Origin: Pseudoalteromonas sp. MEBiC 03607
GTDB taxonomy: Bacteria > Pseudomonadota > Gammaproteobacteria > Enterobacterales > Alteromonadaceae
Assembly: GCF_004792295.1 (NCBI RefSeq)
Contig: NZ_SRRY01000001.1
Span: 3,231,501-3,295,500 of the forward strand
Reading direction: 5' to 3'
Length of the DNA: 64,000 nt
This document shows positions 2,755 to 24,743 of the stretch, piece after piece. Each line of letters starts with the position of its first letter. Position 1 is the stretch's first letter. The notes below the pieces were generated by a model. It had not been told where the DNA came from. It was given only the letters and a program-made list of their open reading frames with translations, and did no database searches. Position numbers and translations under genes: made by a program.

Positions 2755-2774
2755 GCTAAACCTCTGTAATTTGA

Positions 2775-3338
2775 TTAGTGAAGGGTCTTTTTAGTACTTT
2801 TTCCTACTGGCTCTTTACCTAGCTCAGCAAAACATAGCAATGCAGAAACACGCACATACTCAATCACTTCGTGCAGTGCTTGGCTGTCTTCTTCGGTCTC
2901 TTCAAACATGGTGTCTAGGCGGGTAATTTCACTAAAGTCGCTGATCACTTCTTTCACATCAGCTGATAACTTGCCGTAATCTTTTTGTTTTAAACCAAAA
3001 CCAAGCATAAAACCCGATACCCAAGATACTAAGCCATTGGCTAAATCGATCAGCGTTTCATCATCGCTTGGTAAAAATAGGTCAAACTGAAATTCTTCAT
3101 CACTAAAACTGGCAACAACCTGAGAATATACATCAGCAAAAAATGCTTTTAAATCTTTACTAAAAGCTTGGCCATCGTTGAATACATCACTTAATAAACC
3201 TAAGTATTCATCGGCTTCAATATTGATGCCACAGGCTAATAAACCACTTATCACACCATGGGCTTCTGACGGTGCGACAAAAATTTCATTTTTTTCTAAT
3301 AACAATTGGGCTTGTTGGTAATCAGGTAACGTGCTCAT
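2775..3338 (-). CDS. ygfB: UPF0149 family protein YgfB
   Basis: 187-residue acidic, mostly helical protein of the YecA/YgfB (UPF0149) family. Family features visible are the N-terminal PSEAHGVISGLLACG stretch (about residues 22-36) and the central LVSWVSGFMLGFGL segment (about residues 103-116). YgfB is the first gene of the operon in E. coli and here too, with pepP following. In Pseudomonas aeruginosa the homologue has a regulatory role in antibiotic resistance; no catalytic residues are evident. The divergent space upstream leads to the 6S RNA gene. Confidence 0.88.
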   Translation of the reverse strand: MSTLPDYQQAQLLLEKNEIFVAPSEAHGVISGLLACGINIEADEYLGLLSDVFNDGQAFSKDLKAFFADVYSQVVASFSDEEFQFDLFLPSDDETLIDLANGLVSWVSGFMLGFGLKQKDYGKLSADVKEVISDFSEITRLDTMFEETEEDSQALHEVIEYVRVSALLCFAELGKEPVGKSTKKTLH

Positions 3339-3530
3339 AACTTTTTCTTTGTTCGGCTAAGTAACGTCATGCTACCACTCGATAAATCGCAACTCCAATT
3401 AATTGTATGATTGAGGTCAAAAAGCAATCTGAAAAGTAAATAAGCAGTTAAAGGTGGGGAAAAACTACGCGAACGATCCGCTTTTTTTGCTTCTATGGTT
3501 TAAGGATTGAAACTTGTCTTATATACTGAA

Positions 3531-3717
3531 GGTGTTCCCTAGGGTGCAGGAGCTTGGTTAAGTCCCTGAGCCGATAAATTTTATGTTAGGGTTTCTGTTC
3601 GTTTACTATTGTGCAAGCTCGGCATGTACCGAGAAGCCTACGGTAGACCGCAGATCCCCGCCCTGAAACCTCAAGGTTTCAGGACTGACACCGGGCACCG
3701 CATACTTGGGGAACACC
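3531..3717 (+). ncRNA. ssrS: 6S RNA (ssrS)
   Basis: About 187-nt RNA whose ends pair: GGTGTTCCC (3531-3539) with GGGAACACC (3709-3717). Inside are the signature blocks of gammaproteobacterial 6S RNA: GTCCCTGAGCCGATA after the closing stem, GCTCGG...CCGAGAAGCCT around the central bubble, and a hairpin CCTGAAACCTCAAGGTTTCAGG on the 3' side. 6S RNA mimics an open promoter and sequesters sigma70 RNA polymerase in stationary phase. A -10-like TATACT lies at 3522-3527. Position next to ygfB matches the E. coli neighbourhood, but zapA, which normally lies between, is absent. Ends are set by pairing, within a few bases. Confidence 0.88.
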
Positions 3718-3721
3718 ATCA

Positions 3722-3742
3722 AGCTATCAGCTATCAGCTATC
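3722..3742. repeat. Heptanucleotide tandem repeat (AGCTATC)3, split by the IS
   Basis: Three perfect copies of AGCTATC end exactly at the left end of the insertion sequence. A fourth copy is at 4993-4999, just past the IS and its 3-bp duplication. Removing the IS and one ATC gives four uninterrupted copies. This is one of several heptamer arrays in the window. Confidence 0.85.
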
Positions 3743-3781
3743 TGATCTGACTCCGATAAAGTAGACACAAGGTTTAATTAA

Positions 3782-4588
3782 CTTGTTCGTACTGCATGGG
3801 ACTTTTATACCCTAGGGTGCCATGCCTTCTTACTGAGTTGTAGTATTTTTCAATATAAAAATACGTTTGTGTTGTCATTTCACTACGACTCAGTTCATTT
3901 AAATTCTTTATCCACTCCTTTTATACTGCGCAAAGAAGCTTTCTGAGCATGCGTTATCCCAGCAGTTGCCTTTTCTAGACATACTCACTGTGACACCTCT
4001 ATTAGTTAACCACTTCACTGTTTCCTTTGCGACATACTGAGCTCCTTGGTCTGAATGAAAGAGCAAATTCGAACCATCAGGTTTACGTGCTGACCATGCT
4101 TTCCTCAGTGTTTTAATAACTAACTCGGCGTTGTTTATACGGCTTGTTACCCAGCCAACAACCTTACGAGAGTACAAGTCAAGGATGACGCATAAATACT
4201 GCCAACCATCTTTACAGCGTACTTGTGTGATATCTGATACCCACACGGTATTTACTGCATCAACATTAAACTGGCGCCGTAATAAATTACTCGCTTTGAT
4301 TGTACCTTCTTTCTTCGAGCGGCTTGTATAGCGTCTTTTACCTGACTTTGAACGATAGCCAACGCTTTGTAATAGTCTCTGCACACGCCCTTTACTGCAA
4401 TCAAAACCATGTGCTACCGCTGCCTCCCAGAGCTTCCTATAACCAGGAATACAGTGCTCTTGGTCGCTGACATACTTTAGAAATTTCAGTAACGAACTGT
4501 TTTCTTTCTGGCGTGTGCTAGGTAATTGCTTTAACCATTTATAGTATCCAGCCGGCGACACAGATAACCAGCTGCACAACTTCTTCAC
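3782..4588 (-). pseudogene. IS3-family transposase OrfB (DDE integrase), C-terminal frameshift
   Basis: Reading from a GTG at 4588, the product has the HTH_21 region and the rve DDE core. The first Asp is in VSDITQV, the second in FHSDQGAQY and the Glu in ACSESFF. The frame ends early at 3908 after QYKRSG. Shifting by one base at about 3918 restores a normal family C terminus (WIKNLNELSR..., then YNSVRRHGTLGYKSP), ending near 3782. One G appears lost (AGGAGTGG for AGGGAGTGG). The DDE residues remain but about 45 C-terminal residues are lost. Upstream of the GTG the frame is open back to orfA, as expected for a -1 fusion. Confidence 0.85.
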
Positions 4589-4629
4589 TGTGCGTTTGGC
4601 GTCTGTGACCTTGTGGATATATTCGAACC

Positions 4630-4959
4630 TTATTCTTTTAGGCTGTCGAAGTAGACCTTCGCCTTTTTTAAAACGTCATTCTCCAACTGAGCATCTTCGA
4701 GTTGCTTCTCAAGCTTGCGAATTTGGCGTTCTAAATCTGTGTATGATTTGTCAGGGCCTTGGTTCTTTAGTGGCTTTGCCGTTTTCTTTTTCGAGGTCAT
4801 GTGACTTCTCCAACTTGATAGCATGTCAGGATGAATACCGTACTTATTAGCGACCATCTTAACTGTATCTGTGGTGTCTAACGACTCTTGAACGACTTTT
4901 ATTTTAAATTCGAGGGAATATCTACGCTGTGACTTTACTTTCATGATTACTGACTCCAA
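4630..4959 (-). CDS. IS3-family transposase OrfA (helix-turn-helix)
   Basis: 109 residues: an N-terminal HTH (RRYSLEFKIKVVQES, then MVANKYGIHPDMLSSWR at about residues 36-52) that binds the IS ends, and a C-terminal leucine-zipper-like coiled coil (LERQIRKLEKQLEDAQLEND, about 76-95). Near its end, AAAAG at 4635-4639 is a plausible -1 slippage site. The -1 frame is open from there into orfB (KRIRFEYIHKVTDAKRTV), which would give the OrfAB fusion transposase. The gene itself looks intact. Confidence 0.88.
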   Translation of the reverse strand: MESVIMKVKSQRRYSLEFKIKVVQESLDTTDTVKMVANKYGIHPDMLSSWRSHMTSKKKTAKPLKNQGPDKSYTDLERQIRKLEKQLEDAQLENDVLKKAKVYFDSLKE

Positions 4960-11173: not shown

Positions 11174-11247
11174 AGTTGCGAGTTGCGAGTTGCGAGTTGC
11201 GAGTTGCGAGTTGCGAGTTGCGAGTTGCGAGTTGCGAGTTGCGAGTT
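11174..11247. repeat. Heptanucleotide tandem array (AGTTGCG) about 10.6 copies
   Basis: Seventy-four bases of uninterrupted AGTTGCG with no visible variation. It is non-coding and lies 137 bases upstream of the efflux operon's first gene. A second, different heptamer array follows 37 bases later. Seven-base periodicity with perfect copies suggests slippage-driven expansion. Position upstream of the operon could affect its promoter, but no promoter element is seen inside it. Confidence 0.95.
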
Positions 11248-11284
11248 TTCAAAATTGTAGCAGCGATTTTATATCGCGTAAGAA

Positions 11285-11334
11285 AGGTGCTAGGTGCTAG
11301 GTGCTAGGTGCTAGGTGCTAGGTGCTAGGTGCTA
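11285..11334. repeat. Heptanucleotide tandem array (AGGTGCT) about 7 copies
   Basis: Fifty bases of perfect AGGTGCT repeats, 37 bases after the AGTTGCG array. Same unit length, different unit. Non-coding. Confidence 0.95.
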
Positions 11335-11349
11335 ACAGCGTAGTGTCGG

Positions 11350-11624: not shown

Positions 11625-11630
11625 GAATCA

Positions 11631-11676
11631 ATGGTGCCCAGAGGCGGAATCGAACCACCGACACGAGGATTTTCAA
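11631..11676 (-). repeat. attL-like site: detached 3' end of tRNA-Phe
   Basis: 46 bases identical to 23794-23839, covering the tRNA-Phe 3' end from the anticodon loop through the T arm, acceptor strand and CCA. After the match the sequence diverges at once (CCCTTAACGC in place of TCCTCTGCTC). The anticodon-stem partner, D arm and 5' acceptor strand are missing, so it cannot fold as a tRNA. Together with the matching copy it delimits the island. Confidence 0.93.
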
Positions 11677-11857: not shown

Positions 11858-12937
11858 CTACTTTTCAATGCTTTGTTTTTTCTTATCATCTGGCGACTTT
11901 GGCGTGACTGGCGTTACTTGTGAGTAACCTCGCCGATAAACACGCTTTGTTGTTGCCACATTTGAGTGGCCCAATAACTCAAATGCCTGGGTAATTGTCT
12001 CGCACTCACTTGCTGTTTTAGCTCTTAAATCTCTATCCTGAAAACGCTGCTCAGGTTGTAAGTCACCACTTTCGATTGCTGCACGTATCGCTTTATTCCA
12101 CGCAGTTCTAAAACCGTCGGGGGTCAATGCTTGTTCCTTTCGTGAATTAGCGCTTGATGCAAAGAAATACCAATGTAATAACGGCGTTCTGTGTTTTCTA
12201 GTGGTACGGTAACCATTAATTTGTTTAAGCTCGCTGATGATAAAGCTAAGGTGATCCACCGCTTCGAACTGCAATCGGCTACCTGTTTTTGATGCTTGAA
12301 CTTTTAGTCCATTTTCGTCATCCCAGTCTTTGCTGCTAAGTTTAAGCATGTCGGTTTGCCTTAAGCCGGTTGCCAGCTTTAGCGCCACATATAATTGCAG
12401 CCATCGAGGGCAATACTTAACAAACACTGCCAATTCATCATCTGTGACTAGCCGATCTCTTGGCTGTTCTGGGTTACGTATAATTCCATGAAATGGTGTG
12501 TCGTCAATTACGCCCCAGCGCACAGCATGAGACATAATGGTGCTCAGTAACGCAAACTCACGATTGCCTCTTACCGGTGCCCCCTCTCGATTTCTAAGAT
12601 CGAGATATTGATAGGCATGCCTGGCTCTAAGCACACTTGGGTTCATATGACCAAAACGCTTTATCAAATGCTTTGACGCACTAATATTACTCTTGTGTGT
12701 CGATTCTGCCTTAGTGGGTGAAATCTCTTTGAGATACCGGTCAATCAAGTCATGCATCGTTTGGCATTCAAAATTAATCGATGCGTAAGCGTAGTAATTG
12801 CGAAAAGCTTCACTCAGAGTTTTACCAAGGCGCATATCTTTCTGACCGCTTGCCCTTAAGTAATAGGTATTCCCTTTTTTATTAAAGATCATGCCCTTGG
12901 GCAGATTTGCATTTTCTGCAGAACGTTTTCTTCCCAT
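11858..12937 (-). CDS. int: Tyrosine-type site-specific integrase of the island
   Basis: 359-residue phage-type integrase, the likely enzyme for attachment at tRNA-Phe. It has an N-terminal arm-binding-like segment, a SAM-like core-binding domain (about 60-150) and a catalytic domain. Candidate catalytic residues are Arg193 (GLRQTD), Lys217 (ASKTGS), Arg305 (RDLRAK), His324 (LLGHSN) and the nucleophile Tyr334 (KRVYRRG). The usual His of the HxxR box is replaced by Arg302. It starts 5 bases after the DUF4224 gene and ends about 180 bases from the left att copy. The adjacency to the att site is why it is preferred over the second recombinase as the island's integrase. Confidence 0.93.
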   Translation of the reverse strand: MGRKRSAENANLPKGMIFNKKGNTYYLRASGQKDMRLGKTLSEAFRNYYAYASINFECQTMHDLIDRYLKEISPTKAESTHKSNISASKHLIKRFGHMNPSVLRARHAYQYLDLRNREGAPVRGNREFALLSTIMSHAVRWGVIDDTPFHGIIRNPEQPRDRLVTDDELAVFVKYCPRWLQLYVALKLATGLRQTDMLKLSSKDWDDENGLKVQASKTGSRLQFEAVDHLSFIISELKQINGYRTTRKHRTPLLHWYFFASSANSRKEQALTPDGFRTAWNKAIRAAIESGDLQPEQRFQDRDLRAKTASECETITQAFELLGHSNVATTKRVYRRGYSQVTPVTPKSPDDKKKQSIEK

Positions 12938-12942
12938 GACTG

Positions 12943-13173
12943 CTATTGCCCCGTATACAGCTCGTCACCTCTAAGCGTAGTCCCGCCACGCTTAATTTGA
13001 CAGCTATCGCTCGCGCCCAGCTCTGTTTCAATCGTTTTACGCAAAACTTTAGGCCAGCCAAAGGCATCAAGGGTGAAAGTAATATGCATTGAGATCAGTT
13101 GCTCAATTTGCTTCTGGCGCTGCTTACGGCCAGTTAACTCAGCAACTTCAGTTTTAGATAGGAATGTGCTCAC
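12943..13173 (-). CDS. DUF4224 domain protein, integrase partner
   Basis: 76 residues from a GTG start at 13173, chosen because GGAGG stands 8 bases upstream. An in-frame ATG at 13209 would add 12 residues but has no such site. The sequence FLSKTEVAELTGRKQRQKQIEQL followed by ITFTLDAFGWPKVLRKTIE matches the DUF4224 family, small helical proteins very often encoded directly before phage or island integrases. The spacing to int is 5 bases, so the pair is an operon. A DNA-binding or excisionase-like role is plausible but unproven. Confidence 0.8.
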   Translation of the reverse strand: MSTFLSKTEVAELTGRKQRQKQIEQLISMHITFTLDAFGWPKVLRKTIETELGASDSCQIKRGGTTLRGDELYTGQ

Positions 13174-13445
13174 AAAATCCTCCAACGAATAAGTAACCAC
13201 GACTAACAACTAGCCGTGAATCAGCTTGGGACTAACCTTATTCGCGATAATCAGAATTTCGTTTTTGCTCATTTCTGCTGATTTCCCAATATTTCAGCGT
13301 TTTTTAATGTACTTTATAAGTTTTTAGATTACAACAGGTAAGTTTTAAATAGAGATAAATCACAAAAACTAGAAATGACTTGATTTTATTTTTAAATCAA
13401 ATAAATATATTAAGGAAATTACTAACAAATAATAAAAATGTATAT

Positions 13446-13931
13446 ATGAAATTTATAATCCAAACTTTCAAAAAAGGTAGTATTTGCTTTTTTTTCACAC
13501 CATTGTTGATGGGGATCTTAATTATTGCTATTAACTTTTTTGGTGTGACAGGTGAGACCGAGCTCCCTCAATTCCTTGTGGACTTCCTAACTCTTAGATA
13601 TTCAGTGGAAAGTATGATAATACCATTTTTAGTTTTATCAGTACTCAGCATAACTGTATCTCTCATATATGATAACTTTAAGTTATCACACAGTGAAAAA
13701 ATTAGACTATCTAAGTTTTATAATTTTTTGGGTTACTCTGTTAGAAACCTAATTATGTTTAGTGCGGGGTGGTTTTTCGCCTGGTCATTTGCATCACATG
13801 TAGTAGATTTTATTAAACCTATAGATGGGCAAGAAGTTACAGCATTTGCGACACTGCTCTTAGCTTTCATTATTAGTTATTTCATTACTAAATTAAAACA
13901 TAATAAAGTTAAAGGAACTCCTATGCTATAA
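13446..13931 (+). CDS. Unknown four-helix membrane protein (island cargo)
   Basis: 161 residues if started at the ATG at 13446; the frame is open upstream to about 13380 with only a TTG, and no good ribosome site marks either. Four membrane segments are predicted by eye: about residues 11-33, 54-73, 101-122 and 130-150. The C-terminal tail is basic (TKLKHNKVKG). The gene is AT-rich compared with core genes here, in line with acquired DNA. No family recognised. It points the opposite way to its neighbours. Confidence 0.6.
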   Translation: MKFIIQTFKKGSICFFFTPLLMGILIIAINFFGVTGETELPQFLVDFLTLRYSVESMIIPFLVLSVLSITVSLIYDNFKLSHSEKIRLSKFYNFLGYSVRNLIMFSAGWFFAWSFASHVVDFIKPIDGQEVTAFATLLLAFIISYFITKLKHNKVKGTPML

Positions 13932-14206: not shown

Positions 14207-15871
14207 CTATTTACTCATTCCTTTTGTGGCCACCTTCTTACCAACTTTACCTCCAGCTTTATTTGCAGCCTCACCACCTTTCCTACCAGCACTTGCACCT
14301 TTACTCATGCCTTGAAAGCTTCCAATAGCGCCACCCAAGCCCAAACCAGCATAGGTTAATAACGAGGTAAGGATGAAAGGGAACGCAATAAACATCATAT
14401 CTGTTATACGCTGGCTGTTCATCATAACGTTAGGTTGCGTTAACACATCAACGACGGGAACGCTTGAGCTATTAGCAACCGTCTGAATAAATGATTTTTG
14501 AAAAACAATTGTCAGCTCCCAAAAGAAGGGCCAGAGCTGTATAGAAACAAATAGCGCCCCAACGGTGGTAGCTATTTTGATACTGTACTGGCTTACCATG
14601 AGAACCAAAGGAAAGGCCGCTAATAGAATCAGTATCGCAGCACCTTTAATCATAGGCGCGGCTGATTGAACTAAACTGGCTTCGGCATAATCAGGAACAG
14701 TGGACATTACATTACCGACAGTACCCACTAGTCGGTTAAACCAACTACCAATTTTACCCATAACCCCTTCACCTTGAAGGCCATAATCCCTTGTTTCTGC
14801 GCCTTGAATACGGTTCATGGCCACCTTGCTGAAATAGGCCTTTTCCATTAGTTTATCTTCATACCAGCTATCAGAAACATCATGGTAAGATGCCTGTAAA
14901 AGCACCCATATACTGCTTTTATCATCTTCCGGCATACTATCCCATAGACGCTTACGGAGGCTCATATCGTTACTGCTAACGTTGATACCGCCATAACCAG
15001 CTCCGATACCTTGCCACCACTCACGACACGAAGGAAAACCGCCTACTTGGTGGATGCACTGGCCACCGCTGCAATCAATTTCCCCTCTACTTTCCGCTTG
15101 CTGGCTCTCAGACCACTTAGGGATATGCTTATTAGTTCTCGCTCCCTGCCAACCAGATAACAAGACTTGAGAATAGAAGCCCTTTCCTATGTTTCCGTAG
15201 TAAGCGTTATTCATAAATGAGTTATGTCCTGGCCACGGTTGAGCATCTGTACGAGGATCATCTATCCACGGCATGTTCTTATCGCCTTGGCGTAACGCTT
15301 TATTGAGTGCCGGTTGGTAACACTGTTTTATAAATTCCTTTGTCTCGATACGTAGCACTGTATCAACAATACGACTATTCATTAAGGTATTCGTTGCTCC
15401 CTGCAAGTTAAAACCGCAAGGTAAGCGGTCAACCGACTCAATAGAAAAGCCTGTTCCAAAGGCTCTAGCCAGCGCAACGATAACCGGAACTTTTAGTTTA
15501 TTGTTCGACAGCATTACCCCTAAATCTTCTGCAGGGCCGCCCTTCTTAAAAAAGCCATTATTAATCTTTGGTTGCTTGTAGCCTTCGCACTGCTTGCTGT
15601 ATAGCTGAAAACTATCCAACTTAAGCGGCACCATTGGATAAAAAGCTGTTATAAACACAAACATTTGCAGGTATGTGCCAATTTCCAGCTTGCCAAGCAT
15701 GCCTACCTTAGCTTCTTCATCCCCTTCAGCCGCCTTTAATAATTGGGTCACAACAAACACAATCACAGGCGCAATTATCAGTTTAGTGCTGATAGCAATG
15801 TCAGTTATGGTGTTGAGGGCATATACTCCTGTAGCAAAAAAATACAGGTCACTTAGGCTCGTAAATGTCAT
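14207..15871 (-). CDS. TraG N-terminal domain conjugation protein
   Basis: 554-residue membrane protein resembling the TraG-N family of integrative conjugative elements and F-like plasmids, which acts in mating-pair stabilization and, in some elements, in entry exclusion. It begins SLSDLYFFATGVYALNTITD, with N-terminal membrane helices (about 30-45 and 67-82). A long Cys- and Trp-rich periplasmic section follows (about 90-390), then C-terminal helices (about 405-445 and 490-520) and a Gly/Lys-rich tail. F TraG is longer because it has an extra C-terminal domain; island TraG-N proteins of this length are known. It overlaps the small membrane gene upstream by four bases. No other mating-channel genes are present. 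Confidence 0.8.
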   Translation of the reverse strand: MTFTSLSDLYFFATGVYALNTITDIAISTKLIIAPVIVFVVTQLLKAAEGDEEAKVGMLGKLEIGTYLQMFVFITAFYPMVPLKLDSFQLYSKQCEGYKQPKINNGFFKKGGPAEDLGVMLSNNKLKVPVIVALARAFGTGFSIESVDRLPCGFNLQGATNTLMNSRIVDTVLRIETKEFIKQCYQPALNKALRQGDKNMPWIDDPRTDAQPWPGHNSFMNNAYYGNIGKGFYSQVLLSGWQGARTNKHIPKWSESQQAESRGEIDCSGGQCIHQVGGFPSCREWWQGIGAGYGGINVSSNDMSLRKRLWDSMPEDDKSSIWVLLQASYHDVSDSWYEDKLMEKAYFSKVAMNRIQGAETRDYGLQGEGVMGKIGSWFNRLVGTVGNVMSTVPDYAEASLVQSAAPMIKGAAILILLAAFPLVLMVSQYSIKIATTVGALFVSIQLWPFFWELTIVFQKSFIQTVANSSSVPVVDVLTQPNVMMNSQRITDMMFIAFPFILTSLLTYAGLGLGGAIGSFQGMSKGASAGRKGGEAANKAGGKVGKKVATKGMSK

Positions 15872-16215
15872 GCGATCACCGTCAATATTGGAACGGCTAA
15901 CAATGCAACCAGAACGCGCATCTTCTTAGTTTGTAGATAGTCTGCTTGTGCTTGTGATAAGCGCTTGGACTTTACTAACCAGGCTAAGCCTTTTTCAAAG
16001 CGAAATATCAACACCAAGGCGGCAACGATGACCAGAATATCAGTGATAAAACCAATGCTTACCGTGGATTTATTCATGGCCACTAAACCAGCAAGGAAAC
16101 TATCAGCTCCGTTCACTATCGCGCTAGGATTACTGACAACAAGGCCTAACAACAAGGCTTGAACCGCCAGAACTGCAACTGAAATGATAAGGGTATTTTT
16201 AAGAAATGTTTTCAT
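15868..16215 (-). CDS. Small membrane protein paired with TraG-N
   Basis: 115 residues with an N-terminal helix (TLIISVAVLAVQALLLGLVV), a second helix (about 55-72, IGFITDILVIVAALVLIF) and a C-terminal helix (about 100-114). Its stop overlaps the start of the TraG-N gene (ATGA), so they are translationally coupled and probably act together in the inner membrane. Genes of this size commonly precede traG in integrative elements. No family is assigned with certainty. Confidence 0.7.
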   Translation of the reverse strand: MKTFLKNTLIISVAVLAVQALLLGLVVSNPSAIVNGADSFLAGLVAMNKSTVSIGFITDILVIVAALVLIFRFEKGLAWLVKSKRLSQAQADYLQTKKMRVLVALLAVPILTVIA

Positions 16216-16355
16216 ACAAAGCTCCGTATTTCGTAAATCAAAAACATCGAGCCGCAGCCAATCTACGCCTCAACTAAATTCTTCTTATTTGCTCTGATCT
16301 ACGATGGCCGATGCCTCGTTATTACGTTTACTGGTTTACAGACTCAGTAGGTCTA

Positions 16356-17297
16356 TTAATCATTGAGTAGTTTGCTCACCTCTAAATTTAACTGATAATC
16401 ATCATGTTCGAACTCTGCAACCAATGTCTTTTGAATAAACTTGTATAAGGTTTCAATTCGATAACCAAATGTATGATGTAAGCCTAGGTATATCTTTACC
16501 ACAGAAGCTCTTGATTGCACCATTGACTTGAATTGCTCATACACTGTTTCACAATCTTTTGCAGTGATGAACTCGGTTTGCCAATGGGCTCCATACAGCA
16601 TTCGGCATTGAGTAAAGAGCTTGCTGCTAACATGCTTTACCCCTGTATATTTGCGAACAAAGCTTAAATCAGCTCCGGCTGCGATAAGTTCTTTAATTGG
16701 CCGAGTCTTTTGTAATTGAATCTTCATTAACGCAACCGCTCTATCGACCCTAGCACTATCCACTTCAAGTCCAATCACGCTTTTTTGAATTAACAATCGC
16801 ATATACAAGTTGAGATGAACGGCTTGTAACCGTTGCATTACAACTATTAACTCGGACGGTACCGGAAACATAAAGTAATTGCTTGGAGCTTGCTCCGCAT
16901 GTTCCATTGCACCACTCAACAAACCTAAAAACTTACTCGCTAAAAGTTGATCATGCTCGAATCTTGCGCCCAAACTCTTTACGTATAATTGAGTCGATAC
17001 ATTAAGCTTTTGTAATTGATATAAATTTAGTTCCGCAACTAACTCAGCCAACTTTGTAGCAGTATTAAAGTTAACTTTTACCTCAACTGCTTTTTGACTC
17101 GACAGCTTAAGGCAAAACTCATGCAGCTCACATACTGTCAATTCGGTAATAAACACACCAGCCTGCCTGCTAATTCCAAGTTCTTGCACTGCGGAGTCAA
17201 TACCATCATAAGCGCTAAGCTCACATATTCCATGAACTAGCAACGGTGCAGCTTCATTTTTGAAATCAAGTGTCCCTTCAAACATGGCTTCCTCCAT
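16356..17297 (-). CDS. Island protein of unknown function (possible DUF2857-like regulator)
   Basis: 313 residues, largely helical. A segment at about 215-245 (KELIAAGADLSFVRKYTGVK) looks like a helix-turn-helix and recalls DUF2857 proteins of integrative elements, but the match is by impression only. The N terminus has a basic-free acidic region. It overlaps the small gene upstream by 20 bases, and that gene follows the recombinase at 17510 by 13 bases, so the three form one transcription unit. An in-frame ATG three codons after the first (MEEAM) may be the true start. Confidence 0.6.
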   Translation of the reverse strand: MEEAMFEGTLDFKNEAAPLLVHGICELSAYDGIDSAVQELGISRQAGVFITELTVCELHEFCLKLSSQKAVEVKVNFNTATKLAELVAELNLYQLQKLNVSTQLYVKSLGARFEHDQLLASKFLGLLSGAMEHAEQAPSNYFMFPVPSELIVVMQRLQAVHLNLYMRLLIQKSVIGLEVDSARVDRAVALMKIQLQKTRPIKELIAAGADLSFVRKYTGVKHVSSKLFTQCRMLYGAHWQTEFITAKDCETVYEQFKSMVQSRASVVKIYLGLHHTFGYRIETLYKFIQKTLVAEFEHDDYQLNLEVSKLLND

Positions 17298-17496
17298 TAT
17301 TGAACTTAGCCAGCTGTCTATCCTTACGTTGAATGATCCTTGCCAACTTTTTTAACTTGTACTGTTGCTCACCATTTACTTTTTCCAGTTCTGTAGAGCG
17401 CAGTTTAATAGTACTTACATCATCTAAAAATTGTGCCCATTCAGCGTCAGGAATAAATATACCGTACACATCGCGGTACTTTATTTTTTCTGCCAT
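17278..17496 (-). CDS. Small coiled-coil protein of unknown function
   Basis: 72 residues; residues about 30-65 form a charged probable coiled coil (LEKVNGEQQYKLKKLARIIQ), ending in a Gly-Gly tail. It lies between the second recombinase and the 313-residue protein, overlapping the latter by 20 bases, which supports co-translation. No family recognised. Confidence 0.6.
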   Translation of the reverse strand: MAEKIKYRDVYGIFIPDAEWAQFLDDVSTIKLRSTELEKVNGEQQYKLKKLARIIQRKDRQLAKFNNGGSHV

Positions 17497-17509: not shown

Positions 17510-18409
17510 TCATCGACCTAAATATATGACTGTGATCTGCTCTCGGCTGTGGCCAAGTTCATTAGAAACCTGTAATCGCGCTTGCCTATCAATTTGTTTT
17601 TGTTCTGGTGTGAGTTGTTTGCTTGTTGGCCCACCGGCGATTGGAGAGCGCCAACCGGTTAGTTCTAAGTAACGCTGTTGGGCATACATGTGCCTAAGCC
17701 CGTGGTTTTTATCTAGCCCTGCTTGGCTTGTTTGCCGTTCATATGCTTTGAGTTGTTGAATATAGTTTCGGTCGGGGCGGATCAGCGCGCCTCCACCGAC
17801 TTGCTTTTGCACTTGTTGAAGTAGATGTCGCTGAGATTCTGTTCTAATAGGAATGACTCTGGGACGACCGCCCTTTGTCCAGCTGGGCTTTAGTACTAAC
17901 TGTTCGCCTCGAATGGCATAATTAGGTCGAAATTTAATGGCTTCTTCTCTACGTAAGCCAAACTCTCGCTGCAGTCGAAGTGAGAGTTTAACAAGCGGGT
18001 CGCTGACTTTCTCAAGCTTATTTTGTTCTAGTTCTTTTGCTTTTGACTCGGTAGGTGTGTAGGTTCGCTTTTCCAAATCAAGTGTGATTGCTTGGTTTGC
18101 ACCATTATTAGACTTCGGCAGCATCGAGGCTTTACCGATTTTTTCCGCCCACCATCTTACATGGCTAAGTCGATTTTTAATGGTGCCAGCAGATAGCCCT
18201 TCCCCCTGCCAGCGCTCAACAAGATAGTTTACGTGTTTGGGTTTGAGTGATTGCACCGATTGCAAGCGGTACCCGCCCTGTTTAAGCTGAGCAGAGATCT
18301 GGACCAGTACTTTTTTTCGCTCAGCCTTAACTCCAAAACTGCCGTCTTGGTTTCTGAGCATAAGCCCTTGAAGCTGATATTTTAAATTACTCAATATTTG
18401 TTCACTCAC
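17510..18409 (-). CDS. Second tyrosine recombinase (Integrase_1 / phage_int N-type)
   Basis: 299 residues. Residues about 1-95 form a SAM-like core-binding domain. The catalytic domain has the complete set: Arg153 (FGLRREEA), Lys179 (SWTKGGRPR), His236 and Arg239 (NHGLRHMYA), His287 (LGHSREQ) and Tyr296 (VIYLGR). The tyrosine stands only four residues from the C terminus. It belongs to the integrase-domain proteins often found inside integrative elements away from the att end. It leads an operon with two small unknown genes. Its target site is not evident; a role in dimer resolution or cassette movement is possible. Confidence 0.85.
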   Translation of the reverse strand: MSEQILSNLKYQLQGLMLRNQDGSFGVKAERKKVLVQISAQLKQGGYRLQSVQSLKPKHVNYLVERWQGEGLSAGTIKNRLSHVRWWAEKIGKASMLPKSNNGANQAITLDLEKRTYTPTESKAKELEQNKLEKVSDPLVKLSLRLQREFGLRREEAIKFRPNYAIRGEQLVLKPSWTKGGRPRVIPIRTESQRHLLQQVQKQVGGGALIRPDRNYIQQLKAYERQTSQAGLDKNHGLRHMYAQQRYLELTGWRSPIAGGPTSKQLTPEQKQIDRQARLQVSNELGHSREQITVIYLGR

Positions 18410-19052
18410 CGTGTTTATAAGTTCGATTACACGTTACCAACCCAACTAACTATTTGAACCAATATCCAAATGGTAAGTTTTAAATGCCAACTGCACGTTG
18501 GAGCGTACAATTTCCGTATAAATACGAATAAAGGCACAACAGTTCAAAATGGCCAAATTAGCCTCGCTTTAGATGCTTCCCGCAGTGGGCGTGCATGATA
18601 AAGCGCATATAAAAATGTGCTCAGCACAGGTCAGTTAGGTCATAACACTTCTCCTATTTGAGTTCGTTAGGGATCGCTTAATTCTCTGCAAAACGCAGGT
18701 ACAAATAGCCAAACTCAAGGCATAAAAGTGCCTAAATCAGATGAACTAATTTGTTAGGTAAAAAGCCCGAAAGCTTGGTTTCTAGTTGTGAGTAGATCTC
18801 ACTGATATGATAAAGCCACAGGCTTTATTTCTTGACGCGATGACATTCGTCTCGCTTTTGCTGGAATCATTTTTAGAGTGTCATAACGCGCACATAAGTT
18901 CAACAAATAATTTCCCCTCTTTGTTCTTCTTGGTTTAGCGCGGGGTTTGCCACCGCGTCATTCCTCTTTGCTTCGCGGAATGACGCGGTTTATCAGGTAC
19001 TTTTTAAGCATATTTTTTTCTTTGTGCTGGATAAGAAATATGCAAAAATCAA
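18410..19052. other. Non-coding island segment with hairpins
   Basis: 643 bases with no convincing ORF. Visible structures are a hairpin ATAAAGCC-ACA-GGCTTTAT at about 18810-18828 and a perfect 13-bp stem ACCGCGTCATTCC/GGAATGACGCGGT with a 12-base loop at 18952-18989. The latter has no U-run on either strand, which argues against a simple terminator. The segment could hold the promoter of the leftward recombinase operon, a small RNA or a transfer/replication origin; none can be assigned. Confidence 0.5.
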
Positions 19053-19745
19053 ATGCATAGAAATGTTCAAATCGCGATAGGGAAGATGACAAACTTAAAC
19101 AAATGGGGTGAGTTATACGGCATTTATAAGAAAACACACCGTTCAAGAATTGTAAAATCTCTGTATAGACACAAACCGATAAGCAAGTCATGGCCATACT
19201 TTCTTGCATTTTTTATGTACCTTGCAGTCTCTGTGGGTGCTTTTTTCTTAGGGAGAGACTCTAATTTATCGCTATTTTTGGTCGCTTTAGCAGCTATTAT
19301 TCTCTACGTTTGGTTAGAGCTTAGAATTCAGAATGAATACAAGAATCTTTATATTACCCATAATCTAAAGTCTCATCCTTTCTTCTTGAGGACGAGATAT
19401 TTAAGATATATCCTTTTTGCTGAAGAACTTACTAAAAGAAAGACTTTTACTCCAACATCTGTAGAAAAGCTCATCGAGTGGGAGGGGGTACGTAAAGAAA
19501 AATTAGAAACTAACGGAATATTCAACGCCCCAATTTTATTAATATTGTTCACTAGCTTGGCAAGCTTAACAGTAGAGTACTTAAAGCAGGAAAAGCTTGT
19601 ATCTTCTCAACTTATCTATTTAGTCATTTTTATTGTGGCCTTAATTGTTTGGTTTTTATGGACACTATCAGACTTATTACAAAGCCATAGGAAGAAATGC
19701 CTAGAAATTTGCCGATTTTTGAAGTGGTGGAAATTAGATTGTTGA
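19053..19745 (+). CDS. Unknown four-helix membrane protein next to the retron
   Basis: 230 residues from ATG 19053; ATG 19086 (MTNLNKWGELYG) is an alternative and would remove 11 residues. Two hairpins of membrane helices lie at about 48-68, 72-90, 158-177 and 187-206. Between them is a cytoplasmic-looking region rich in basic residues (RTRYLRYILFAEELTKRK). The tail carries HRKKCLEICRFLKWWK. AT-rich. It converges with the retron gene (115 bases between stops). No family recognised; whether it is part of the defence locus is unknown. Confidence 0.65.
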   Translation: MHRNVQIAIGKMTNLNKWGELYGIYKKTHRSRIVKSLYRHKPISKSWPYFLAFFMYLAVSVGAFFLGRDSNLSLFLVALAAIILYVWLELRIQNEYKNLYITHNLKSHPFFLRTRYLRYILFAEELTKRKTFTPTSVEKLIEWEGVRKEKLETNGIFNAPILLILFTSLASLTVEYLKQEKLVSSQLIYLVIFIVALIVWFLWTLSDLLQSHRKKCLEICRFLKWWKLDC

Positions 19746-19860
19746 TTGATATTTGCTTATCAGCTCAGTGATGGTTGCCCTCTCACCAGTCATAAAAGAG
19801 TGACAATCCTAGGATACCCACAACAAAATAATCAAAAGGCACTAACCACTAAATTAACAA

Positions 19861-21690
19861 TTACAACGTTTTATAATGATTCTGAACTAATACTATCCGT
19901 TCTAACAATTTATGAAAACCTGAAAAGTCTATAACATTTTTCTTGGCTTGCACAATATGTCTTGAAAAAGCATCTTTACTGAGGTCTACATTATCATTCC
20001 TGAGCTTTACAGTATTAAAGCACTTCCCATTGTAAGGCCTTTTTCGATCGAAATCTGTGAAAAAGTACTCAATATCTGTATTATCACCAGTGTTGGATTG
20101 AGGAGTTAGAATCAAGTACAGATTATTTGAAATATGAACAAAATCCGACTTCCTTATATCACCCTTATTCAAGCTTGTAGGGTAAATCCCTATCCCTTTC
20201 ATTCCTTTTATTCTGCTTATTAGCTGATCAGGTCCTGTATCATTATCAACGAAAATAATAACCGGATTTGCAGGCTTTGGTGCTTTATATAATCGATAGC
20301 GCTCTTCGTATGAGCCAACAAAACTTTTAAAATAGTCCCCACCACCATGCAACTCTAACAAAAAACGTGTTCTTTCTGTATATTTAAAGAACTGGCAAAG
20401 TGGTTCATAAGGTTGAGACTTAGCTAACGATGGAAACGCCGTTGCTAAACGACTTAAAGCAGCTTTTAGATATATGTTATCTGTTTTCCCTTCCGTTAAA
20501 ATCATTGTTAGAGGATTCGCATAGAAAAGCTTATAAAACAGAAAATTGCTAAAGGTTTTCTCCCGATTGTTATACAGGTACCTACGTTGTTTTTGATTTC
20601 CCCCTTTAGCAAGGGCGTCTTTTTGCCGGTGATACTGTGGGTTGAGCGCTGGCTTTTGACGAAGCCTGTTATAGTGGTCTAGTTGGTCTATAAAATTTAG
20701 CTTACCTTCCAACTCATAAATATTCCCCTCTACCTCCTTGTTATTTATAAGATCATAAAACTTTCCTGTCTTAAATAATAAATTGCATTGTGCTCTAACT
20801 GTTCTCCAATATTCAGCTTTAATATTGGGCTTTTTATTTACAATCAAGCCAGTAACATCTTGCCTTGAATCTTTATAAAGAACCCTTGTCTTTTTTGAGT
20901 TTATAGAAAAACCAGAGCGCCTAACCTCAGATTTAAGCTTCTTTCCGAGAGCACATATACCATTTTCCTCACTAACAATTTCAGATGGAAATTTTCTCTT
21001 TCCAGTTGAAAAAGTTATATCATCTGCATACCGACTGTATGTACATGAATTTTTCCTCGCCAAATCAGCAAGCCTAATATCTAATGAATGAGTGATGAGA
21101 TTCGTGATTACTGGAGAACAAGGGCTTCCTTGAGGTAATTCATTATCATGGCAAGCTATCTGAGCTATTGTTGTGGCAACGTTATCATCTAATTCAAAGT
21201 TTTTGTTTTTTATAAAGAAGCCACGAACCCGCCCAAAATTGAAGCTTGAGAAAAAATCTTTTAAATCAATATTCAAAATTGCTTTTTTATTAACATGCAT
21301 CATAGCATTAGTAATAATTGAGCGATGCCTTGTAAAACCGTGAGAAAGTGAAGGCTGCTTAGTTTTCGCACTGTTACATTTGACCTTCAATATATTCGAG
21401 TGACTAGCTTTCGGTGACGCTAACTCTGAATCAGGAAAATTGGCTAAATTGATTTCATCGATACAGTCTAAAAGCAAGTTGGATAATGCAGATTGAATTG
21501 ACTTGAGGCCAGAATCAGGGGATTGTATAGTTCTTACACCGCCAGACTTTTTAGGTATATTAAAGGAAGTATAGAGCGAATTTGTTCCTCGCACATACAG
21601 AGTATATGTAAGAAAAGATGGATGCACTCCTAGCACATCGGCCAACTCAGGTTTTGTTTTTGCAGCTCTTAGCTTTGCAAGCTTACTCAT
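19861..21690 (-). CDS. Retron reverse transcriptase-TOPRIM fusion (Ec67/Eco2-like, type I-C)
   Basis: 609 residues. The retron-specific NAxxH motif is NAMMH (128-132). RT motif A is IDLKDFF (141-147) and motif B QGSPCSP (187-193). The YADD active site is at 221-224 and the retron VTG motif (QDVTGLI) at 279-281. From about residue 395 a TOPRIM-like domain begins: Glu400 in LTEGKTD, then the DxD pair in IIFVDNDTG (Asp482, Asp484). Retron RTs copy part of a partner RNA into multicopy single-stranded DNA; in Ec67-type systems the fused TOPRIM part is the effector in phage defence. ATG 21690 has AAAGGA about 8 bases upstream and lies 16 bases after the msr-msd locus. No separate effector gene is needed. 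Confidence 0.93.
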   Translation of the reverse strand: MSKLAKLRAAKTKPELADVLGVHPSFLTYTLYVRGTNSLYTSFNIPKKSGGVRTIQSPDSGLKSIQSALSNLLLDCIDEINLANFPDSELASPKASHSNILKVKCNSAKTKQPSLSHGFTRHRSIITNAMMHVNKKAILNIDLKDFFSSFNFGRVRGFFIKNKNFELDDNVATTIAQIACHDNELPQGSPCSPVITNLITHSLDIRLADLARKNSCTYSRYADDITFSTGKRKFPSEIVSEENGICALGKKLKSEVRRSGFSINSKKTRVLYKDSRQDVTGLIVNKKPNIKAEYWRTVRAQCNLLFKTGKFYDLINNKEVEGNIYELEGKLNFIDQLDHYNRLRQKPALNPQYHRQKDALAKGGNQKQRRYLYNNREKTFSNFLFYKLFYANPLTMILTEGKTDNIYLKAALSRLATAFPSLAKSQPYEPLCQFFKYTERTRFLLELHGGGDYFKSFVGSYEERYRLYKAPKPANPVIIFVDNDTGPDQLISRIKGMKGIGIYPTSLNKGDIRKSDFVHISNNLYLILTPQSNTGDNTDIEYFFTDFDRKRPYNGKCFNTVKLRNDNVDLSKDAFSRHIVQAKKNVIDFSGFHKLLERIVLVQNHYKTL

Positions 21691-21706
21691 ATAAATCCTT
21701 TAAAAG

Positions 21707-21842
21707 TAATTAGCTTACGGGCACTCTTACGCGTGTCGAGAAGTACCTTAAAGTGATGATACATTTCCTCATAGGCGGTCCGTTCGAACATTTTTTTCAC
21801 TGTTCGCGAAGCGCGAACAAAAATCTGCCCGTAAGCTAATTA
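21707..21842 (-). ncRNA. Retron msr-msd RNA (msDNA template)
   Basis: Directly upstream of the retron RT on the same strand. It is bounded by a perfect 17-bp inverted repeat: a1 TAATTAGCTTACGGGCA (minus strand of 21826-21842) and a2 TGCCCGTAAGCTAATTA (minus strand of 21707-21723). After a1 comes GATTTTT and an msr hairpin with an 8-bp stem, TGTTCGCG/CGCGAACA (21801-21819), then AGTGAAAAAA. The G right after a1 (21825) is the probable 2'-5' branch residue, by analogy with Ec67, whose RNA also reads GGCAGATTT and ends in AGTGCC before its a2, as I recall it. The msd would lie in about 21724-21785. Confidence 0.88.
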
Positions 21843-22105
21843 ACAACTTAGCGAACTATGTATGTATAGGCAAGAATTTTGAGTTTGGAACCCCAAACAA
21901 CTTCACTACTTTGCTTTATGAAAAAGCCAATGGTACTCACAAATCGTTTTCACTTTCACGTCGATTATTAAAGATTAACTCTCTGTTTCTCATAGTAAAA
22001 CAGCGGTTATCAATCTGGAGGTACTCCACGCAAGAAACTAGGGGGGGGAAATATCTAAAGCCTCAACCACGGCGAATCGTCCCACCTCCTAGACTTGTTA
22101 ACCTT
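21843..22105. other. Retron promoter region and gene-free stretch with a G8 run
   Basis: No convincing gene. On the minus strand TATACA (about 21865) and TTGCCT just upstream give possible promoter elements for the retron transcript, none of them strong. A run of eight G lies at 22041-22048, and GGAGG (about 22017) and CCTCC (about 22085) could pair around it. A small open frame on the plus strand here has no ribosome site and is disregarded. Confidence 0.4.
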
Positions 22106-22714: not shown

Positions 22715-23512
22715 TTAAGCTATGGGAATATCGCGGTATCGCTCGATTGGAGCTGCTTCGCGCTCTTTTTTGGGAATTATCGTTCGGCGCACTTTGGCTT
22801 TACTTGCCTTCACTTCACCAAATATAAACTTTGCTACACGACTTACTTGCTCTTTTATCACAGACAACAAACCAAGTGGCCGCATCGTTTCAATTAAAGA
22901 CTTTACTGTCATGTATGCCCATCCCAACTTTTTAGAAAGCTGGGAAATGCTTTGTTGGTAGGTATCTCGTTTATTGCGTGTAGATAGTTTGCTAGCTTTG
23001 ATTTTACTGCTGATCAACGCATGTAGCATCAGCATTTTGTGCTGATGTCGTGAATCATACCGGCTTTTAGAGTCGAATAAATGCAACTGAAGACCATAGA
23101 GGGGAAGTGTATTAGCTGCTTGTTGGCCATGAATGATTTGCGTGTAGCTTTGAAGTAGTCGGTAGCCTAGCGGGTGTTTTAAATTAAGCCTCAATTTACG
23201 GCTATAGCCTTTTGTACACTCTTCGAACAATAATGGTTGTTTTTCATCACTTTTAGCACTGAGAAGCTGACTCAGCGCATTTTTTACCGCGTTGATTGAA
23301 TAGCAAAGGTGTTTTGCGATAGATGAAACGCTGGAGTTAAATTTTCCGTGTTTAGCATGGTGATACGCAATATGGCCTAAAACTAATGCCTGGGTATCAG
23401 ATTTAGTTTCATGCAGCACTTCTAATGAGAAGAAGACTTGCTTCTTTCTACCTTGGTTGCCCAAGTTTTGCTTTGCATTTGGTGCAAATTTATTTTTTTG
23501 GTTGTAACTCAA
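22715..23512 (-). CDS. Two-winged-helix DNA-binding protein (possible replication initiator)
   Basis: 265 residues, basic. Two helix-turn-helix segments are visible: SSIAKHLCYSINAVKNALSQ (about 62-81) and SQLSKKLGWAYMTVKSLIET (about 192-211), each followed by a wing-like strand. A tandem pair of winged helices is the plan of many plasmid Rep initiators and of some phage replication proteins. The Lys/Arg-rich tail (KASKAKVRRTIIPKKERE) fits nucleic-acid binding. It is the last gene before the right att site. Function is inferred from fold impression only; it could be a regulator. Confidence 0.6.
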   Translation of the reverse strand: MSYNQKNKFAPNAKQNLGNQGRKKQVFFSLEVLHETKSDTQALVLGHIAYHHAKHGKFNSSVSSIAKHLCYSINAVKNALSQLLSAKSDEKQPLLFEECTKGYSRKLRLNLKHPLGYRLLQSYTQIIHGQQAANTLPLYGLQLHLFDSKSRYDSRHQHKMLMLHALISSKIKASKLSTRNKRDTYQQSISQLSKKLGWAYMTVKSLIETMRPLGLLSVIKEQVSRVAKFIFGEVKASKAKVRRTIIPKKEREAAPIERYRDIPIA

Positions 23513-23676: not shown

Positions 23677-23793
23677 GCTTTCTGGCGTTCGCAAAATCGC
23701 CTCCGTCAATTACGACGAATACAGATATTTTTGTAGGGAAAGTATGTTTTAGTAGGAAACGATATTTTAGATTTCAGCGGGACGCTAGTAAAA

Positions 23794-23839
23794 ATGGTGC
23801 CCAGAGGCGGAATCGAACCACCGACACGAGGATTTTCAA
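23794..23839 (-). repeat. attR-like site inside the intact tRNA-Phe
   Basis: 46 bases identical to 11631-11676, forming the 3' part (anticodon loop to CCA) of the intact tRNA-Phe. The island supplies this 3' end, so the gene stays functional after integration. Confidence 0.93.
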
Positions 23840-23870
23840 TCCTCTGCTCTACCGACTGAGCTATCTGGGC
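23795..23870 (-). tRNA. tRNA-Phe (GAA), last of the array; island attachment gene
   Basis: 76 nt with encoded CCA. Acceptor GCCCAGA/TCTGGGC pairs perfectly; anticodon stem-loop AGGATTGAAAATCCT gives GAA; the T arm is GGTTCGATTCC. The sequence equals the other three Phe genes. Its natural terminator is now at 11595-11624, beyond the island. Confidence 0.97.
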
Positions 23871-24611: not shown

Positions 24612-24663
24612 ACAAGGATTTTCAATGCATTCCCTAACAGCTCTACAACGGAGCTATCTGGGC
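24612..24663 (-). pseudogene. Decayed tRNA-Phe copy 1
   Basis: Minus strand begins GCCCAGATAGCTC like the Phe genes. The D arm is altered (CGTTGTAGAGC), an unrelated stretch follows, and then ATTGAAAATCC, the anticodon-loop core, appears. No T arm, 3' acceptor strand or CCA can be found. It lies in the leader of the tRNA transcript. Confidence 0.75.
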
Positions 24664-24692
24664 AAACTTCGGTTTTAAGCTGAAAATCTTAT

Positions 24693-24743
24693 AGGATTTT
24701 CAATACAACTTCCACAGTGCTCTACCGACTGAGCTATCTGGGC
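24693..24743 (-). pseudogene. Decayed tRNA-Phe copy 2, at the transcript start
   Basis: The first 26 bases match tRNA-Phe perfectly through the D arm (GCCCAGATAGCTCAGTCGG, then TAGAGCA). Unrelated bases and then ATTGAAAATCC follow. The 3' half is missing. Its 5' end lies about ten bases after the -10 element, almost at the expected start of transcription. Confidence 0.75.

Follow-up and report, generated by a model that had tools for sequence, protein, structure and literature searches.

An apparently complete type I-C retron of the Ec67/Eco2 family as exchangeable cargo of a tRNA-Phe element in Pseudoalteromonas sp. MEBiC 03607

The locus

The window analysed here, a stretch of 64,000 nucleotides from the genome of Pseudoalteromonas sp. 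MEBiC 03607, contains a single-copy gene of 609 codons (positions 19861–21690, reverse strand) that encodes a reverse transcriptase (RT, residues ~1–370) fused to a C-terminal Toprim domain (residues ~390–609). The gene begins with an ATG preceded by an AAAGGA site. Upstream, on the same strand, lies a non-coding RNA of the msr-msd type (21707–21842), and an orphan ORF of 230 amino acids with four hydrophobic segments (19053–19745, forward strand) converges on the RT gene from the other side. All of these features are located in a 12.2-kb element inserted at a tRNA-Phe gene. An earlier note on this DNA had described the locus as an Ec67-like, type I-C retron in a tRNA-Phe island. In a search of a plasmid collection, a 20-kb stretch of the second replicon of the genome matched seven records, every one of them from Pseudoalteromonas, with 88.6% for the best.

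The RT-Toprim protein belongs to the Ec67/Eco2 family

The motifs that the earlier note had placed in the protein, namely NAMMH at 128–132, YADD at 221–224 and VTG at 279–281, together with Glu400, Asp482 and Asp484, were found exactly at these positions, so that the retron RT motifs NAxxH, YADD and VTG, as named in the excerpts of PMC12405507, are all present. The assignment to type I-C was borne out by PADLOC, whose best class is RT-Toprim_I-C (735.5 bits), followed by RT-TIR_XII (335 bits). A search against curated retron RTs, one of the checks the note had proposed, gave a match of 743.2 bits to the NCBIfam model NF038237 (retron_Ec67_fus, cut-off 450). The group II intron RT model TIGR04416 gave 43.7 bits against a cut-off of 300. 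The best sequence matches in the PDB are chains of the retron Eco2 (Ec67), with E 7e-135.

Among Pfam families only the RT domain exceeds the cut-off and the Toprim domain has no match. The fold model that had been suggested for confirming this domain supports it: the Toprim part could be placed by its Foldseek match to Eco2 and by alignment, in a region where the model is confident. The AlphaFold2 model, built from 36 sequences, has a mean pLDDT of 78.2 and a pTM of only 0.56. From residue 381 on, 20 of 23 blocks of ten residues have a mean pLDDT of at least 84; at residues 96–130, which extend into the NAMMH motif, values are mostly below 50. The five top Foldseek matches are Eco2 chains (best E 7.5e-52, TM-score 0.67/0.70), followed by other retron RTs and, lower in the list, by group II intron, Abi-P2 and DRT RTs. 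By alignment and fold, the fused Toprim domain carries the glutamate, the DxD and the metal-B residues, with the serine S513 of Eco2 replaced by D539.

Since RT folds resemble one another, and group II intron, Abi-P2 and DRT enzymes do appear in the fold list, we considered whether the gene could encode an RT of one of these other classes lying beside a fortuitous inverted repeat. PADLOC, NCBIfam, the PDB matches and the fold, as well as the covariation and the covariance model of the RNA described below, favour Eco2 by a wide margin; the profile and fold scores and the covariance-model match practically rule out an RT of the group II intron, Abi or DRT classes, and the chance that such a reading is correct is negligible. 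The retron is one more member of an already known family with solved structures.

The msr-msd RNA and the predicted msDNA

The earlier note had located the msr-msd 16 bases upstream of the gene, and indeed 16 bases separate the start codon from a perfect 17-bp inverted repeat (a1/a2), which forms the two ends of the RNA at 21707–21842. The predicted RNA fold has a z-score of –4.9, which none of 200 shuffled sequences equalled. A motif rule located the RNA in 35 of the 36 family loci, counts that include the own locus and four duplicates; the sole exception is L015, whose protein is 31% identical. The stretches chosen in this way gave an alignment of 31 distinct sequences. The covariation structure comprises 28 base pairs, at which 84.7% of the cells of the alignment can pair, against 76.3% in shuffles, and changes on both sides were found in 24 of the 28 pairs, against 13.8 in shuffles. 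The covariation score of 0.350, to be read with the caveat that the sequences are related to each other, compares with 0.182 in shuffled alignments, none of 500 reaching the observed value, and with at most 0.114 when the structure is slid along the alignment. Furthermore, a covariance model built from 24 homologues, with the window left out, matches positions 21708–21841 with 118.9 bits (E 5.6e-29), against 24.6 bits (E 0.00015) on the other strand at the same place, and this is the only place in the 4.56-Mb genome that is matched. Rfam has no family for this RNA at its gathering thresholds. The repeat, its recurrence in the family, the covariation and the independent model show the msr-msd RNA to be real.

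The ends of the msDNA were placed against the rG15, the rG52 and the 67-nt msd of Eco2 given in the excerpts of PMC12405507, after locating the Eco2 RNA in E. coli S10. By this analogy, the branching guanosine equivalent to rG15 would be at 21825 (reverse strand) and the predicted msDNA would be 65 nt long, at 21725–21789 on the forward strand. Its DNA fold is weak, at –1.7 kcal/mol, and is equalled or bettered by 198 of 200 shuffles; for the msDNA of Eco2 itself the corresponding count is 93 of 200, and among the 31 predicted msDNAs of the family one lies below a z-score of –2 and one, that of the window, above +2. A strong DNA hairpin was thus not found in the predicted msDNA of the window and is not a trend in the family either, and by this measure a stable DNA hairpin is no family rule. 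We may speculate that an msDNA with little stable structure would be well suited to sensing single-strand nucleases such as DenB.

Comparison with Eco2 and a possible mechanism

Eco2 (Ec67, from E. coli S10; PDB 9lm3, 9i2f and 9s1f) is an RT-Toprim fusion alike over its whole length, with 42% identity in the fold alignment and 44% in the alignment with the S10 protein. The two retrons have in common the RT motifs, the Toprim carboxylates, the order of the elements in the ncRNA, a GGCAG at the branching guanosine, a 3-nt msr loop and the organization as a single gene. In particular, F46, YADD, E374, D378, D460, D462 and E515 of Eco2 are kept as F43, 221–224, E400, D404, D482, D484 and E541. The lysine printed as K562 of Eco2 is an aspartate in S10 by the numbering used here, and an invariant lysine nearby corresponds to K572 of the window.

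The differences concern the msDNA, predicted to be 65 nt rather than 67, about 25 extra residues around positions 85–115 in the clade of the window, and several residues of Eco2. H281, which in Eco2 stacks on the msr loop, is N303 here, with asparagine at this place also in 6 of 10 aligned relatives. The metal-B ligand S513 corresponds to D539, and aspartate occupies this place in 33 of 36 aligned rows, the window included; R70 is replaced by S67. Finally, R332, which makes a trimer contact and whose change to alanine abolished defence in Eco2 (PMC12405507, excerpts), is Y353 here, so that trimer assembly may differ from that of Eco2. In ten other aligned proteins this place is Arg in two (Eco2 and L031), Tyr in five, Trp in one and a gap in two; the R332 contact is a detail of Eco2 and not of the family. 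The genomic setting also differs, with Eco2 lying beside phage portal, terminase and replication genes and the retron of the window in a tRNA-Phe element.

These differences raise the question of whether the retron could be decaying or silent, that is, a member of the family by descent whose function was lost as msDNA folding and trimer contacts drifted. The weak predicted fold of the msDNA would fit this, as would the absence of R332, R70 and H281 and a promoter scan that gave no excess over shuffles, with one 9-of-12 site upstream on the right strand (21993–21964). However, the 609-codon frame is open, with all of the RT and listed Toprim carboxylates, and the AAAGGA site stands ahead of the ATG; the tyrosine at the place of R332 is shared by five of the ten aligned relatives and the asparagine at that of H281 by six; and a1/a2 is perfect over 17 bp in spite of differing in sequence from the common one, indicating that pairing was kept through change. 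We therefore consider a silent retron very unlikely, and return to an intact one of the Eco2 type.

In Eco2, according to the excerpts of PMC12405507, the msDNA and the RT-Toprim protein form an autoinhibited trimer, in which the Toprim part, an RNase toxic on its own, stays in the fusion and is blocked by the msDNA. Four phages that escape Eco2 carry mutations in denB, damage to the msDNA is the proposed trigger, and in the published model the Toprim domain acts as RNase once the phage nuclease DenB has damaged the msDNA (PMC12405507, excerpts). Of the suggestion in the earlier note that the Toprim part is released or activated by phage infection, activation thus agrees with the model of Eco2, in the text seen of that paper, and release does not. 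By analogy, a mechanism of this kind is likely here too: the ncRNA would fold through a1/a2; the branching guanosine would prime reverse transcription of ~65 nt; the resulting msDNA-RNA would keep the RT-Toprim protein in an inactive complex; infection would damage the msDNA, in Eco2 apparently through DenB; and the Toprim domain, once freed from inhibition, would cleave RNA and stop the infection. Formation of msDNA, RNase activity, trigger and defence are all transferred from Eco2, and we hold it highly probable that the locus is a complete type I-C retron acting as an abortive-infection anti-phage system and carried as exchangeable cargo of the 12.2-kb tRNA-Phe element.

Relatives and distribution

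At least 5,995 homologues with E ≤ 1e-30 were found among 7,991 scored candidates, in candidate sets (patterns included) that favour near relatives, and about 20 of 120 homologues among the matches listed bear the name "retron Ec67 family." At the level of genomes, homologues are present in 3 of 108 Pseudoalteromonas genomes and in 11 of 295 sampled genomes of the family, own included in both counts. Plasmids contribute 29 of 72,556 records (E 1e-40) and phages a single one of 50,697, with 35% identity; ten stretches of viral contigs matched a pattern and none was confirmed as a homologue.

Marine retrons of the Ec67 family, from Marinobacter, Hahella, Vibrio, Colwellia, Thalassotalea and Shewanella, are 53–69% identical to that of the window; their msr is closely similar where the loci were compared, whereas the sequence of the a1/a2 arms differs by paired changes. 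In the phylogenetic tree the protein of the window clusters with one from a metagenome and with that of Marinobacter halotolerans (support 96/84), then with Hahella. The two other Pseudoalteromonas retrons fall in other branches, and these sequence relationships suggest that the retrons of the genus were acquired separately.

The earlier note had supposed that such a locus might not have been described in the genus. No paper on this copy was found in a literature search that was narrow where it used the genus name; homologues with open frames are nevertheless present in 2 of 107 genomes of other Pseudoalteromonas species, with 57% and 48% identity. Retron RTs of cold-adapted bacteria, 83 in number, are reported in the excerpts of PMC11124354.

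The tRNA-Phe element

The island itself was confirmed by an exact 47-bp repeat of the 3' part of tRNA-Phe, attL at 11630–11676 and attR at 23793–23839, the latter overlapping the tRNA-Phe at 23795–23870. ARAGORN finds four tRNA-Phe and three tRNA-Thr genes, and in the relatives G003 and G056 the site is empty, the left flank running directly into the first tRNA-Phe of the array. Outside of the element, two stretches in which 7-base units are repeated in tandem, one GAGTTGC-like and one GGTGCTA-like, were seen by eye just left of it at 11175–11335, as were degenerate pieces of tRNA-Phe after the last tRNA of the array at 24620–24743; farther away, a 6S RNA (3533–3716) lies near a transposase-like pair (HTH_Tnp_1 and rve, 3908–4959).

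Most genes of the element are on the reverse strand. They encode a phage-type integrase, int1 (11858–12937); a DUF4224, excisionase-like protein (12943–13209); a TraG_N-like protein of 554 amino acids (14207–15871), accompanied by p115; a DUF2857-like protein below the Pfam cut-off (16356–17297); p72, a small ORF directly after int2 (17278–17496); int2, a tyrosine-recombinase-like protein with Phage_int_SAM_2 and Integrase_1 domains that is perhaps an atypical relaxase (17510–18409); and, at the tRNA-proximal end, an HTH protein (22715–23512) with an HTH_36 just under the Pfam cut-off, replication-initiation-like by PHROGs. A protein of 183 amino acids with three hydrophobic segments and no Pfam or PADLOC family (13380–13931, forward strand) is encoded in a second variable stretch.

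The "conjugation-type genes" of the earlier note hold for the TraG_N protein; a canonical relaxase was not found by Pfam among the 12 island proteins. An integrative and conjugative element would have a relaxase and type IV secretion genes, and this element of 12.2 kb, with TraG_N as its only recognised transfer part, does not count as one. Like the I55 family described in PMC12595487 and the phage defense elements of Hussain 2021 that are cited there, it has direct repeats at a tRNA or tmRNA, a tyrosine integrase, defence cargo and no complete transfer machinery; unlike them, as far as the excerpted description in PMC12595487 goes, it has a TraG_N block, int2 and a palindrome-bounded cargo slot. 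The block of TraG_N, p115, DUF2857-like and p72 genes (14207–17496) is 89–96% matched in G002 and 25–52% in G088, the latter for three proteins paired by BLAST, and it possibly serves to hijack a helper as in SGI1.

Exchange of the cargo

The same element, recognised by the joint presence of int1, int2 and the HTH protein, is found in 7 of 108 genomes; that of G088 is split over two contigs, and G076 retains a fragment of the HTH gene and a remnant of the slot. We term slot A the stretch between the HTH gene and int2. The backbone around it is 91–94% identical to those of G002, G088 and G076; homology is lost at 18989, 18994 and 18989 and regained at 22010, 22132 and 22076, respectively. The exchanged module, 18990–22010 with a right edge that is ragged by copy (22010, 22076 or 22132), thus comprises the RT gene with its ncRNA and, in addition, the orphan membrane ORF.

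In the elements of six other Pseudoalteromonas species the module is replaced by other genes, five of them with other PADLOC-recognised genes. Slot A holds the type I-C retron in the genome of the window (G000), Septu PtuA/PtuB in G022 (343 and 225 bits), a type VI retron RT and HTH in G037 (224 and 79.5 bits), accompanied by a methylase gene, and a KAP NTPase of the candidate family PDC-S20 in G066 (276 bits); the genes tested in slot A of G002, G058 and G088 have no PADLOC family, two proteins having been tested in G058. In what we label slot B, a PDC-M62A/B-like pair is present in G037, a pair of GmrSD_N (PADLOC NsnA, 258 bits) and HEPN genes in G002, and a PDC-S39 gene (500 bits) on the other contig of G088. 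At least one PADLOC-recognised gene is thus found in six of the seven copies, three of the families (PDC) being candidate defence families only. In L098, the locus of G037, the RT_VI and HTH_VI genes of the type VI retron (2571–4026) adjoin the DNA methylase gene. The remnant in G076 has, at the place of the retron (L101, 7272–8447), a pentapeptide-repeat protein with an ion-channel domain.

The common module raises the question of whether the retron has a second component, the convergent membrane protein being an accessory or a second effector. The four hydrophobic segments of this protein, and its travelling with the retron in one module, are compatible with such a role. However, its ORF is on the opposite strand, tblastn matched it among loci L001–L057 in two own loci only, a single homologue (97%, from a metagenome) was found among 501 candidates, and PADLOC marks type I-C as a single gene; we consider the proposal unlikely and prefer the retron as a single-gene system. 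The remark in the earlier note that nothing downstream looks like a second effector stands as regards known effectors, and has to be qualified for the orphan ORF in the same exchanged module.

The palindromic slot edge and int2

The left edge of slot A coincides with a palindrome (18952–18989) with arms of 13 bp and a loop of 12 nt, which lies at the fixed edge of the cargo slot and is a candidate oriT. It is not a dispersed repeat, its exact core occurring once in the genome, and as RNA the stretch folds with a z-score of –4.2, which 1 of 200 shuffles equalled. A homologous hairpin, starting 520–544 bp upstream of the int2 start, is present in all seven element copies, and one pair of its stem is changed on both sides in three of eight sequences. 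Homology ends within 24 bp of the outer end of the hairpin in all 21 pairwise comparisons, which are not independent since the copies share descent, and six of these pairs are 91–97% identical up to the hairpin edge.

In the int2 family, among 29 loci, which include the own and several near-identical ones, 19 have a hairpin of score ≥12 within 1 kb, against none of 145 Markov controls; in 15 a strong palindrome lies 406–544 bp upstream (one partial start corrected), and in four more elsewhere within 1 kb. The other ten have no hairpin at this threshold, two of them (G022 and G037) having weaker ones. Int2 homologues are also present in 213 of 72,556 plasmid records, with up to 56% identity among the best 20 of the 213. 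In two of four plasmids a conjugative coupling-protein gene follows the int2 homologue, directly in the Pleionea plasmid and behind a small ORF in pSIO1; of the four, one has its own MobA/MobL gene and one has neither. In pSIO1 a palindrome with GTCACT/AGTGAC in its arms lies 532 bp upstream of the int2 homologue, and in the Shinella plasmid such a palindrome lies 476 bp upstream; no palindrome reached the thresholds used in the two other plasmid loci. When p72 was compared with three small ORFs, BLAST gave no match, and no relatives of int2 were found in the PDB by sequence.

This arrangement recalls SGI1. According to the excerpts of PMC8409611, SGI1 carries TraG but no full conjugation system; its relaxase, MpsA, is tyrosine-recombinase-like and has an auxiliary, mpsB, and its oriT is a stem-loop located upstream of mpsA. 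TraG_N, int2 with the small p72, and the palindrome upstream of int2 resemble the SGI1-like islands of that paper; unlike SGI1, as described there, our element has no TraN, TraH or SgaC by Pfam among its 12 proteins, is about half the size and occupies a different site. Int2 is likened to MpsA by gene arrangement and by the description in these excerpts. As a tentative possibility, to which we give a low probability, int2 could be an atypical tyrosine-recombinase-like relaxase and the palindrome ~0.5 kb upstream its oriT, at which defence modules would be swapped. Exchange at an oriT would explain why one edge of the slot is fixed, at a nick site by hypothesis, and the other ragged. A similar picture would be expected of a terminator, an insulator or an integron-like capture site; no T-run of an ordinary terminator was seen by eye on either side of the palindrome, and the part of the SGI1 paper used (PMC8409611) together with the plasmid int2 loci leads us to prefer a relaxase with its oriT over an integron-like capture site. 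Against the relaxase stand the 10 of 29 int2-family loci and two of four plasmid loci without a palindrome at the thresholds used, and the plasmid with its own MobA/MobL gene. No paper on the palindrome or the element was found in a literature search of titles and the beginnings of abstracts.

Concluding remarks

On its own, the retron is of modest interest; the unexpected part is the slot, exchangeable and with a palindrome conserved at its edge, which is described here and not proven. In different species, one type of tRNA-Phe element has been found with a type I-C retron, with a type VI retron, with Septu or with candidate systems, and the sharp, conserved edge of its slot makes the swapping of defence genes between mobile elements directly testable. 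As for the family, whose mechanism was worked out for the E. coli Eco2, the retron of the window is an intact-looking marine member, and the differences in its trimer contact, metal ligand and msDNA offer a test of which parts of the Eco2 mechanism are general.
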